34,331 nucleotides of DNA, taken from a virus. The stretch covers positions 1 to 34,331 of IMG/VR virus record IMGVR_UViG_3300046355_000163; one strand, 5' to 3'. The notes under the pieces were generated by a model that was not told the origin of the DNA, searched no databases, and saw only the letters and a list, made by a program, of their open reading frames with translations. The position numbers and the translations under genes are program-made. This document shows, in pieces, positions 25,327 through 31,560 of the stretch. Numbering within the stretch: position 1 is the first letter of the stretch; each line of letters begins with the position of its first letter.

Positions 25327-25399
25327 AACATATCATAATTTTTACTAGATGTGAATTAGGGTTTGTCCTAGTGTGAATTCCTGTTGATAACTTGATAAT
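25327..25399. promoter_or_regulatory. Candidate bidirectional promoter with palindromic element, copy B
   Basis: The palindrome TTAGGGTTTGTCCTAG is at 25356-25371. Rightwards, GATAAT at 25394-25399 lies 22 bp beyond it. Leftwards on the minus strand, TATGTT at 25332-25327 lies 23 bp beyond it, with a TTCACA box 17 bp before that hexamer. The start codons are 55-56 bp away on both sides (25427 plus, 25299 minus). One site may therefore control both the late virion unit and the 31-aa membrane gene. Confidence 0.55.
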
Positions 25400-28099: not shown

Positions 28100-28279
28100 T
28101 TACTTGTACGTCAGCATTTGAACCCGCCAGACTAAAAAGTCGTGTTTTTTACCTTGCTCATAAAACACTCTTGATAAGGCTTCTAGCAAATCTTTTCTGG
28201 CTTGCTCATTCAATTCATAAAAAGAAGCAACACGCGCTTCAAACTTGATATTTTCAGTTACCGCATTAGCGCTGCTCAT
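28100..28279 (-). CDS. Small hypothetical protein (59 aa)
   Basis: The ATG at 28279 opens a 59-codon frame that overlaps the end of the sigma-like gene by 14 bp and stops TAA at 28100. The product MSSANAVTENIKFEARVASF is followed by YELNEQARKDLLEALSRVFY and a basic, aromatic tail. It is probably helical. No family was recognised. It is supported by coding continuity across an otherwise empty 170-bp stretch. Confidence 0.6.
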   Translation of the reverse strand: MSSANAVTENIKFEARVASFYELNEQARKDLLEALSRVFYEQGKKHDFLVWRVQMLTYK

Positions 28280-28700
28280 GTCTAATCCTTTTCATTTCAT
28301 GTTGATACCAAAACCACGGCATAACTCGATCATCTATTTCTATGCTCGGCACGCCAGTTAGCTTTACTTGGTGATTTCTAAATCTTCTCAATGCTTTTAT
28401 AAGAATTTGCCTTATCCGCTCTTGAGATTTGTCTAGTTCTTTTCCAGCTTCTCTTAATGTTGCATTATCAAAAATAATAAGATAAATAACTTTTTCTTCT
28501 TGTTCGGTTAATGGCGTTATCTCAAGCAATCTCTTTGCAAAGTCTTTTTTTATTTCCAGATCACAATCTGTAGTTGTTGGCCAGTAAGAATCTATTGGTT
28601 CACATGGCTCTGGTTCTACGTCTTTGCTGTACCAAATCTTTTTTACTTCACTTGGTAAATTCACTACGTCTAGTTTTCCGTAGTGATTTACTCGTCCCAT
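28266..28700 (-). CDS. Sigma-70 region-4-like regulator
   Basis: This 144-aa protein has a domain at about 63-108 with the classic region-4 pattern, PLTEQEEKVIYLIIFDNATL then REAGKELDKSQERIRQILIKALRRF, containing a helix-turn-helix. The -35 recognition helix would be S92-L103. The N-terminal part (residues 1-60) carries no region 2, so it cannot be a full sigma factor. It could bind DNA as an activator or interact with host RNA polymerase to redirect it. It is the second gene behind palindromic promoter element C and a candidate link to those elements (inference). Confidence 0.75.
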   Translation of the reverse strand: MGRVNHYGKLDVVNLPSEVKKIWYSKDVEPEPCEPIDSYWPTTTDCDLEIKKDFAKRLLEITPLTEQEEKVIYLIIFDNATLREAGKELDKSQERIRQILIKALRRFRNHQVKLTGVPSIEIDDRVMPWFWYQHEMKRIRHEQR

Positions 28701-28925: not shown

Positions 28926-28952
28926 TGTCTTGAGAATTAGGATAAACCCTAA
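28908..28952 (-). promoter_or_regulatory. Candidate promoter with palindromic element, copy C
   Basis: On the minus strand the palindrome TTAGGGTTTATCCTAA occupies 28952-28937, and GACAAT occupies 28913-28908, 23 bp further on. The start codon at 28888 is 48 bp from the palindrome. The arms TTAGG/CCTAA match perfectly. The palindrome also overlaps the last four bases of the PAPS-reductase-like gene, so the two transcription units touch here. Confidence 0.6.
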
Positions 28953-30172
28953 GTCTTAAGTTCGTCAGCAAAAATGTTCCATGCAAGTCTGCGACGCTTC
29001 ATCAGGTCTTCATATTTAGCGTACGCACTTGTTTTTGTTGGGGAGAATCCCAAGTATTTGCACCAATAGTCATTGCGTAAAAGCGTTTTGCAAACACGCC
29101 TCCAGCTTGGCGCTTTACCTGCGTTTTCAATCTTTAGATCAGCTTCGTCCGGTATACCATCAGGATAGCCGCGAGCTGTCCACCACTTGATGTAAACCGC
29201 GATTTTATTTTTGTAGTGTTGCGCTGTTTTTGGCGGCGTGCTGGACAAAAGACTTTTCGCAAAACTTTCCCATGTATGACCTTTTGGCAGCGTTATTGTG
29301 TGGTTTCCCATAACGTTACCGCGTTCATTGCTATACATCTTTCCGGTGTTAGCTCCATTCACACGCAACACCAACTTAGCCCACAAACTTGGCTCTACCA
29401 CTTGATACAGCCATAAGCCTTTTCTTGATTCGTCTCCCATTGGTTCGCAAATACGCATTTGGCTTAGCTTCATTCCTGCTTGATGCATACGGTCATACAG
29501 TTTGTTATGGCTCTTACCAGTCTTTGCGTGATATGTCCAAATGTCTTCAACTTTCCAATCGTAAATTGGGTAAACATTCCAAACGTTTTCAACTACATTT
29601 GTAGTAAACATCTTGCCTTCATAAGTTGGTTTTTTCCGGCTAATTGACCTGAATCGGTTAAGACTTTCTTGAGCTCGGATGCCAACAAAACAAGCGCATT
29701 TTTGACCTTGCGCGTACCACTGGCCAAATGTTGGGACAAATTCCTCAAACATGATGCCTTCATACCAAAATGGAAAATGCGAGCCATCTTTGATGCTAAT
29801 TTCTGGCTTTTGTCTTGCCCACAAGTTTTTTTTGCCTTCGTCCCAAGCCGTCCATTCTGGGTCGTGCGTTGAACAAGCGTTCCAAGTTTTAATAGGCACA
29901 GCAACCCAGTAAGGGTCTATGTTGCCAGCGTATTCAGCGTAAATCTGTTCTGCAAATTTAATAGTTAAGCTGAATTGGGCCTCCCAATCAAGAAAAAACA
30001 AACCAATCTTACGACCGCGTTTTTTTGCTTCTTGGCAAACCAAATGCACCATAACCCCGCTATCTTTGCCAGCGGAAAAGCTGCAATAAATTCGATCAAA
30101 GTTATCAAACGTCCACTCAATACGCTCTTGCGCTGCTTGCAACACATTGATTCCTAATCCACGTTTAGGCAT
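28949..30172 (-). CDS. PAPS-reductase-like protein (IbrA/YbdN type)
   Basis: This 407-aa protein is of the adenine-nucleotide alpha-hydrolase (PAPS reductase) superfamily in the DUF3440-like branch of E. coli YbdN and IbrA. The P-loop is SFSAGKDS at residues 31-38, followed by GLFFLDWEAQFSLTIKFAEQ. Further segments are IYDWKVEDIWTYHAKTG and RMHQAGMKLSQMRICEP, and the C-terminal part has CKTLLRNDYWCKYLGF. The ECGxH redox motif of true CysH is not seen. The ATG at 30172 follows GGAG and overlaps the preceding stop by 8 bp. DNA sulphur modification (as with DndC) is possible, but a regulatory role as proposed for IbrA is equally open. Confidence 0.85.
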   Translation of the reverse strand: MPKRGLGINVLQAAQERIEWTFDNFDRIYCSFSAGKDSGVMVHLVCQEAKKRGRKIGLFFLDWEAQFSLTIKFAEQIYAEYAGNIDPYWVAVPIKTWNACSTHDPEWTAWDEGKKNLWARQKPEISIKDGSHFPFWYEGIMFEEFVPTFGQWYAQGQKCACFVGIRAQESLNRFRSISRKKPTYEGKMFTTNVVENVWNVYPIYDWKVEDIWTYHAKTGKSHNKLYDRMHQAGMKLSQMRICEPMGDESRKGLWLYQVVEPSLWAKLVLRVNGANTGKMYSNERGNVMGNHTITLPKGHTWESFAKSLLSSTPPKTAQHYKNKIAVYIKWWTARGYPDGIPDEADLKIENAGKAPSWRRVCKTLLRNDYWCKYLGFSPTKTSAYAKYEDLMKRRRLAWNIFADELKT

Positions 30173-30551
30173 TTTTACTTCTCCAATATTCAATTGCTTC
30201 ACTTGCTTTTTGATTTGCAAGCTCTTGTTGTTCAGGTGTTAAGTGGCTCCACGCTGCTCTAACAATGTCCTCTGGGCATCCAATTGCCATTGCAACCGCT
30301 GCATGGCCTATCCAGGGTCTTTTATCGCCTGGCTTTGTTAGGTTGTGCTCGCATGAGTATTTCCATTTTTCAGCAACTTTTAGCATCCACTCACCATATA
30401 AATCGTGGTTTCCCGTAAACAATACGGCAATCTCAAGCCATGTTTTTCGGTTGCTTACGTTTCCCCACATATTGGCTTTTATTTCTTCCAAAAGCCACCA
30501 AGGATGCCAAATTTCACTTTCGCTCGGGGGCGAATCACTCACTAAGTTCAT
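30165..30551 (-). CDS. Middle gene of the ParB/PAPS-reductase cassette (128 aa)
   Basis: From the ATG at 30551, behind GGAGGG, the product starts MNLVSDSPPSESEIWHPWWL LEEIKANMWGNVSNRKTW and continues to GHAAVAMAIGCPEDIVRAAW and LTPEQQELANQKASEAIEYW. It is Trp-rich, with CPEDIVRAAWSHLT near 90-103. No domain is named. It overlaps the ParB-like gene by 17 bp and the PAPS-reductase-like gene by 8 bp, so all three are probably translated together. It is likely a partner protein of the pair. Confidence 0.7.
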   Translation of the reverse strand: MNLVSDSPPSESEIWHPWWLLEEIKANMWGNVSNRKTWLEIAVLFTGNHDLYGEWMLKVAEKWKYSCEHNLTKPGDKRPWIGHAAVAMAIGCPEDIVRAAWSHLTPEQQELANQKASEAIEYWRSKNA

Positions 30552-31224
30552 CAACACCCTCCACTTCTTCAAAAGTCTCTGCTTCCCACGCTTCTGAAAA
30601 TTCAGAATCAGCAAACAAGCCAGACAAACCTGTTACCTGTTGCAACCGCAAAACTTCATCGGCCTCCATGCCTAACTCTTTTGCGATTTTTTCATCCGAC
30701 CAAAACCTACGTTTTAGTTCAACAACAATTTCAGACATTGATTCAACCTTATGCTCTCCACGAGCGCGGTTGTGGCGAATCGTTGATGCCATACGATCGT
30801 TTTTGTTTTGGCGACTTCCATTGATAACCACGGCAGGCAAGTAGCCATGAACACGAGAGCAAACAACACCAGATTCCTTACCAACGCGATGTCGATGGAA
30901 TCCGTCAACAACCTCAAAAATACCGTCACGCGACCACGAGACAATTGGCTGCGTATATCCATCTTCTGAAATCGAATGTTCTAATAATTTCATTTCTGGC
31001 GGAGCAACACTGTTAGGGTTGTAATCATTCGCTTGAACCAAATCATTTTTAATCCAACGAACAAAATCTACTGGCTCAGTATTAAATGGACTATATTTAT
31101 GCAGCTCTTCACGAATATCGTTAATCAATTCAACTTTGGTTTGTATTGACTCATTTTCAAGTTGCTTAAAGAGTTCTTTGCATTGCTCAAGAATTGATTT
31201 ATTTCCAAAAATATCTATTTGCAT
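30535..31224 (-). CDS. ParB/Srx-like nuclease-fold protein (IbrB/YbdM type)
   Basis: This 229-aa protein has the ParB/sulfiredoxin-like core of E. coli YbdM and IbrB. VQANDYNPNSVAPPEMKLLE lies near 63-82, VVDGFHRHRVGK at about 105-116 (D107, H110, R111), and NDRMASTIRHNRARGEH at 142-158 (R150-R155). A helix-turn-helix region follows at about 170-198. These residues suit the phosphate or nucleotide binding of ParB-type CTPases and Srx kinases. It is the first gene of the cassette, 55 bp behind promoter element D. Confidence 0.85.
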   Translation of the reverse strand: MQIDIFGNKSILEQCKELFKQLENESIQTKVELINDIREELHKYSPFNTEPVDFVRWIKNDLVQANDYNPNSVAPPEMKLLEHSISEDGYTQPIVSWSRDGIFEVVDGFHRHRVGKESGVVCSRVHGYLPAVVINGSRQNKNDRMASTIRHNRARGEHKVESMSEIVVELKRRFWSDEKIAKELGMEADEVLRLQQVTGLSGLFADSEFSEAWEAETFEEVEGVDELSE

Positions 31225-31250: not shown

Positions 31251-31295
31251 ATTGTCAATCAATGCCTTATGCGTTGCTATTAGGACAAACCCTTA
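31251..31295 (-). promoter_or_regulatory. Candidate promoter with palindromic element, copy D
   Basis: On the minus strand the element TAAGGGTTTGTCCTAA lies at 31295-31280, and GACAAT at 31256-31251, 23 bp beyond, is preceded by TTGATTG. The ParB-like gene starts 55 bp from the element. The element sits inside the last codons of the HNH/Ref-like gene, so the cassette has its own promoter within the replication unit. Confidence 0.6.
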
Positions 31296-31560
31296 GAAGC
31301 GTCCAATCAAGTAGCTCTTGCTGTGTGATTCCATAGTGCTTGACGAATCCACGTGTACCCAAGCCATGCACACCAGTGTTTCCGCGATGGTGTTCAGCGC
31401 AAAGTGGTATCAAAGTTTTGTAATCACCTTTACCCCAGCCGCCTGCTCTCAGGTGGTGAAGCTCTACAGGTGCTGGGTCATGATCGCCATGCAAGTGGTA
31501 GCAAAGAGCGCAGCCAAGCTCTGCAACGGCCTGCTTGTGGGCTTTTTCATCCTTGGTCAT
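31267..31560 (-). CDS. HNH nuclease, Ref-like (97 aa)
   Basis: This small HNH protein has CALCYHLHGDH (C17, C20), VELHHLRAGGWGKGDY (H35, H36) and PLCAEHHRGNTGVHGLG (C54, H57, H58). It follows the layout of the P1 Ref-type HNH proteins that stimulate RecA-dependent recombination by cutting DNA. It is shorter than Ref because the DNA-binding N-terminal extension is absent. The gene is coupled to the 110-aa gene (ATGA at 31557-31560) and lies near RusA, so it probably has a recombination role. Confidence 0.8.
   Translation of the reverse strand: MTKDEKAHKQAVAELGCALCYHLHGDHDPAPVELHHLRAGGWGKGDYKTLIPLCAEHHRGNTGVHGLGTRGFVKHYGITQQELLDWTLLRVCPNSNA

Follow-up and report, generated by a model that had tools for sequence, protein, structure and literature searches.

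Gene pairs of the IbrA/IbrB type are widespread: many phages have them, and so do the E. coli chromosome and several hundred enterobacterial plasmids. They are routinely annotated as sulphur metabolism or partition proteins. In E. coli, IbrAB activates the eib genes of prophages (Sandt 2002, as cited in PMC8065619 and PMC7649339). Our searches of the literature on IbrA, IbrB, DUF3440, and PAPS reductase together with ParB returned annotations and this activation report, and no mechanism. The IbrB side of the pair belongs with the ParB-type proteins; the arginine box of ParB-type clamps is GERR. DpdB and DndB are ParB-superfamily proteins that work beside DNA-modifying enzymes (PMC12839542, PMC10853773).

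Layout and recurrence of the three genes

The window analysed here is the IMG/VR virus record IMGVR_UViG_3300046355_000163 (34,331 bases, positions 1-34,331). It carries three genes, B, M and A, with intact open reading frames, all on the minus strand and overlapping head to tail by 17 nt (B/M) and 8 nt (M/A; Table 1). The original prediction had described three overlapping genes with a Trp-rich protein in the middle, and the reading frames agree with it. The start ATG of A sits in the stop region of M, within ATGCCTAA, and a GGAG-like site is present ahead of each of the three start codons. The cassette adjoins RusA, HNH and primosomal genes.

Table 1. Genes and dyad elements of the cassette (positions in the window)
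Feature	Position	Strand	Description
Gene B	31224..30535	-	229 aa; ParB/Srx-superfamily NTP-binding domain + helix-turn-helix, IbrB/YbdM-like
Gene M	30551..30165	-	128 aa, 10 Trp; all-helical, undescribed phage family, third component
Gene A	30172..28949	-	407 aa; PP-loop ATP-pyrophosphatase domain (PF01507 relative) + DUF3440, IbrA/YbdN-like
Imperfect dyad, TTAGGN6CCTAA-type	31280-31296	.	Pattern TTAGGRYAAACCCTWAG, 0 mismatches to the degenerate pattern
Second dyad copy	28937-28953	.	Pattern TTAGGRYAAACCCTWAG; overlaps the A stop codon, precedes the next gene

The cassette had also been described as AT-richer, from counts of 18 and 36 G+C in stretches of 60 bases. These counts are right, and the G+C content of the whole cassette (42.6% versus 47.4% for the window) is the 9th lowest among 321 windows of equal size. 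AT-richness is not peculiar to the cassette, however; it extends beyond it, since the 950 bases directly downstream are even poorer in G+C (39.6%). Just downstream of the cassette, a 144-aa protein encoded at 28266-28700 (minus strand) has weak similarity to a sigma-factor region (PHROG_351, 8.9e-11) and is, by this similarity, a possible phage sigma factor or regulator.

The first dyad of Table 1 lies 56 nt upstream of B, within the 3' end of the HNH gene. We took it as the predicted promoter-element copy D, and the dyad at the end of A as copy C. Both are present, and the pattern exceeds chance expectation, with four matches in the window against 0.31 expected from shuffles; the weaker copies are at 25355 and 245. 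The four dyads (245, 25355, 28937 and 31280) are mostly ahead of gene starts, and TAGGGTTTnCCCTA-like sites similar to them were seen in the related loci L054, L055 and L134. The dyad upstream of B has only partial counterparts in relatives. A sigma-70 scan upstream of B returned no promoter. A TTGACA-like site is present at 31258, but the second hexamer that goes with it is poor and leaves only ~7 nt before the start codon. The dyads look like operator or phage-promoter elements and are candidates for such a role.

We searched for M independently of A and B and obtained 47 + 75 viral loci and 5 MAG contigs; the latter may be prophages or phage contigs. A was found beside M in all 127 loci and B in 125, the other two being truncated contigs. 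M was present in 62 of the 80 loci of an A-anchored search and in 62 of 69 new loci of a B-anchored one, the A-, B- and M-anchored searches all being biased toward relatives close to the window. Junctions were mostly tight, at most 30 nt for 85/87 B-M and 107/137 M-A pairs.

Gene order was compared in the 169 loci that were left after removing those with A at least 90% identical. The order B-M-A was the commonest (73 loci), followed by M-A-B (32) and by a fused B-M gene with A behind it (22); M was lacking from 19 loci, which had A-B only, 17 had the order A-B-M-A with a pair of A paralogues, and 6 had other arrangements. The three main arrangements need 11 changes on the A tree (FastTree, approximate), indicating that the genes were reordered repeatedly yet stayed together. 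The B-M fusion was observed in 26 ORFs of viral and MAG contigs, with a variable acidic linker. The association of B, M and A is obligate. The co-occurrence in other genomes, the changes of order and the fusions bear out the original prediction that these genes form a specific, undescribed system. This three-component system is real, and we found no description of it in the literature searched.

All three genes of the window cassette are also present in isolated phages, among them Gaia (Mycobacterium), XCL1123 (Pseudoalteromonas), Amjad_SA (Pseudomonas) and Mwe-JY13 (Microcystis), where they are annotated as hypothetical, PAPS reductase or ParB/sulfiredoxin, and not as one system. In Mwe-JY13 (L288, 3549-3974) it is the M homologue that was deposited as ParB/sulfiredoxin, a label probably transferred from its neighbour.

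A few variants of the cassette were noted. The A-B-M-A class (L009, 229-1473 and 2876-4021; also L152, L153, L158 and others) has A paralogues that are ~35-38% identical with PP-loops intact in both, and the second A type is the sole A of phages Gaia and XCL1123. A small GNAT acetyltransferase-like gene sometimes stands among A, B and M (L061; L074, 3723-4136; L284, 5405-5866); a Rhodovastum plasmid that lacks M has it too. The annotations of Gaia, XCL1123 and some contigs (L049, 4736-5635; L050, 5069-5999; L151) show a cupin (ectoine-synthase-like) domain that is either joined to B or accompanies it.

The neighbours of the cassette are mostly replication and recombination genes, by resemblance primosomal, NinG-like, DnaB-like, Erf-like and YqaJ-like, a setting in keeping with an early function directed at DNA.

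Protein families and predicted structures

In Pfam, A matched both PAPS_reduct (PF01507; 8e-17, 62.2 bits) and DUF3440 (1.7e-39, 135.9 bits) over the cut-offs, and it also matched PHROG_2302 (1e-91). Its assignment as an IbrA/YbdN-like protein of the PAPS-reductase superfamily is upheld. Among 202 sequences of both paralogue types, conservation is 97% or higher for the PP-loop motif SxSxGKDS, for D62 and E64, and for GIRxxES and YPxxDW, and with few exceptions these motifs are kept in relatives from E. coli, Klebsiella, Streptococcus and Flavobacterium. The family has no invariant cysteine, each one being replaced in some members: C242 by A, D or S, C361 by A or V, and the best-conserved C371 (94%) by A or S in L289 and L290. 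The most fitting description of A is that of a PP-loop ATP-pyrophosphatase, and obligate sulphur transfer by it is unlikely.

These features bear on two explanations that involve sulphur. In the first, A would be a DndC-like enzyme for DNA phosphorothioation, regulated by a DndB-like B; sulphur or phosphorothioate chemistry had been suggested in the original prediction. A and DndC do share the PP-loop superfamily (a weak PADLOC similarity to DndC, 1.6e-6, beside one to BrxP), and DndB is of the ParB superfamily. However, A scored only 21.4 bits with the DndC model TIGR03183, whose cut-off is 290.4, and it has no invariant cysteine. DndD (TIGR03185) and a cysteine desulfurase (PF00266) were found in none of 14 cassette phage records, some of which may be incomplete, while DUF3440 was present in all 14; the host could supply IscS. 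We therefore consider phosphorothioation very improbable.

The second explanation treats A as an auxiliary metabolic gene whose product, a PAPS reductase, would contribute to sulphur assimilation by the host. It is hardly credible, although it accords with the annotation of A in databases and in several phage papers. A scored 36-40 bits with the CysH models, against cut-offs of 154-254, and its SxGKDS loop is of the ATP type as in CysD (SIGKDS), not the SSSFGIQ of the solved PAPS reductase. Neither the absence of an invariant cysteine nor the permanent linkage to a ParB-type protein fits such a role. The existence of a phage-linked third subunit likewise speaks against listing IbrA/IbrB-type genes among the sulphur auxiliary metabolic genes of viromes.

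B matched PHROG_2159 (E 3.6e-67), and with 24.8 bits it fell 1.5 bits short of the cut-off of Pfam ParB_N (26.3). Motifs around DGFHR and RHNRARG are strongly conserved in its family. For the fold, we used the model of a B-M fusion relative (L282), the B part of which is 58% identical to the window B. With this part, Foldseek retrieved Noc, ParB and KorB (Noc E 1.5e-6, KorB 7e-6), and the model has an NTP-binding N-domain followed by a helix-turn-helix domain, as in the ParB/Noc/KorB clamp family. The earlier assignment of B as an IbrB/YbdM-like ParB-Srx protein is upheld as well. A serine kinase (SerK/SbnI) was also considered for B; the fold is shared, but the helix-turn-helix domain and the better match to Noc/KorB oppose it.

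M matched no model of Pfam, PHROGs, NCBIfam or PADLOC, and 32 M relatives scanned singly gave isolated marginal matches only, none better than E 0.001. Its predicted structure (AF2; mean pLDDT 94.3) is all-helical with six main helices. Searches with this model found no relative in the PDB by Foldseek (best E 2.1) and one viral protein of 50% identity in a viral structure search; the VIA structure comparison reached at most Z 3.3, an uninformative level. Such a weak or missing structural match of a predicted model does not prove a new fold. In the prediction of the L282 fusion (pLDDT 89.6, pTM 0.60) the linker is disordered, so the model does not fix the arrangement of B and M. Ordinary ParB has its C-terminal dimerisation domain at the place that M holds in the fusions, which suggests that M may supply an assembly or partner contact.

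Mobility of the cassette and distribution of M

When the window was compared with six relatives (L001, L004, L055, L134, L135 and L137), the main DNA match was the cassette (~31,130-28,960). The cassette is mobile, the conserved DNA being the cassette alone between most of the related phages compared. The window and L054 share 95% protein identity in A, 79% in B and 36% in M, and their DNA similarity breaks off where B ends, to return only where A begins; L057 has the same break. Where A identity is 0.8-0.9, the mean identities of B and M are 0.81 and 0.67, and where it is 0.6-0.7 they are 0.65 and 0.38. M evolves the fastest of the three, and A genes that are nearly identical can be accompanied by exchanged versions of M.

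Distances of A and B are well correlated (Mantel r 0.76), whereas those of M correlate only weakly with A and B overall (0.20 and 0.19). When each gene order was taken by itself, M reached higher values of 0.57-0.81, except in unfused B-M-A. With 7 loci only, a control for co-evolution based on neighbour genes was left out of the comparison. On the A tree, 4 changes suffice to explain the 4 states of the common M types; the idea of a free swapping of M is weakened by this count, which indicates that M mostly travels with A and that block replacement is occasional.

Relatives of A are present on 654 plasmid records, mostly of Klebsiella, Escherichia, Shigella and Salmonella. M had no tblastn match in 72,556 plasmid records, and its profile found nothing in four plasmids carrying A or in 17 viral records with an M-less A-B pair (positive controls 16/16). 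An HMM search for M-like genes beside M-less A-B pairs also returned none. Plasmids, Streptococcus phages and E. coli commonly have the A-B pair but no M, and M is therefore not required for every function of the pair. IbrA/IbrB as a pair of two genes is thus the broader category, while the form with three genes is largely confined to viruses. In one Klebsiella plasmid record (L283, NZ_OP378648.1), the DUF3440-ParB pair has a LysR gene ahead of it and lies beside dsbG, ahpCF and methionine-salvage genes; despite the plasmid label, this region resembles a piece of chromosome.

The rapid evolution of M and its replacement as a block would fit counter-defence or superinfection control, in which a variable M meets a target of the host or of a rival phage and A and B act on nucleotides or defence complexes. 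That A-B pairs are common on plasmids too is in line with such a role. On the other hand, the commonest neighbours include no recognised defence gene, and in PADLOC M matched nothing, while A showed no more than a weak similarity to DndC/BrxP. We regard counter-defence as unlikely.

Possible mode of action and comparison with known systems

We tentatively propose that the three proteins act as one unit, in which B and M bring A to DNA for an ATP-dependent chemistry that leads to gene control, with a DNA mark as a possible product; this reading is the likeliest of those considered but falls short of probable. B, as a ParB/Noc/KorB-type protein, would sit on DNA under nucleotide control. M would serve as a helical adaptor on B, to which it is covalently joined in some phages, and might choose the partner or the site. 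Together they would bring A to a DNA site or a DNA-bound target, where A would split ATP to AMP and pyrophosphate and so activate (adenylate) a group on the DNA or on a DNA-bound protein. In this way the cassette may control the expression of phage or prophage genes, perhaps by marking DNA chemically. A regulatory outcome is proposed because E. coli IbrAB activates prophage eib genes, and by analogy with DpdB and DndB the cassette may also mark DNA.

The same eib data fit a pure transcriptional co-activator, with B on operators, A sensing nucleotides without forming a covalent product, M contacting RNA polymerase or a repressor, and the DNA left unmodified. IbrA and IbrB raise eib expression in E. 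coli (PMC8065619 and PMC7649339), the closest fold matches of B include the repressor KorB, and dyads flank the cassette. But the conservation of the catalytic residues of A, at least 97% in 202 sequences, goes beyond the need of a sensor, and the cassette lies mostly among replication and recombination genes, not repressors. A co-activator of this kind is conceivable but, in our judgement, rather unlikely.

The proposed recruitment of A to DNA by B and M could also be carried further. The cassette might represent a new class of phage-encoded DNA-marking or DNA-targeting enzyme, built from a ParB-type clamp that loads on DNA (B), a phage-specific, exchangeable specificity subunit that selects the site or the partner (M) and a cysteine-independent PP-loop enzyme (A), which would make an ATP-dependent modification other than sulphur; we think this improbable. 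The phage-linked M, which is fused to B and sometimes swapped, provides a first handle on the targeting of the pair and makes the function of the widespread IbrA/IbrB pair newly testable.

Among known systems, the phosphorothioation systems Dnd, Ssp and BREX-4 (DndC, SspD, and BrxP with DndB) combine a PP-loop enzyme with a ParB-superfamily partner, as the cassette does. The cassette differs from them in that A misses the DndC model and its cysteines are not conserved, that neither a desulfurase nor DndD was found with it in the 14 records, and that M matches no PADLOC model. The CTP-dependent DNA clamps ParB, Noc and KorB have an N-terminal nucleotide domain and a helix-turn-helix in common with the B model. 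Unlike their GERR, the arginine box of B is DGFHR, and a C-terminal dimerisation domain is not apparent in B, its place being taken by M in the fusions.

The E. coli IbrA/IbrB and chromosomal YbdN/YbdM pairs belong to the same two families as A and B of the cassette, and their genes likewise adjoin and overlap each other. IbrA of phage PhiR5_2 shares 46% identity with A. The pair occurs without M in PhiR5_2, in the four plasmids and in Streptococcus, Lactobacillus and Flavobacterium phages, unlike in the window cassette. Pairs of the E. coli type have the order A then B and no third gene, whereas in the window M stands between B and A.
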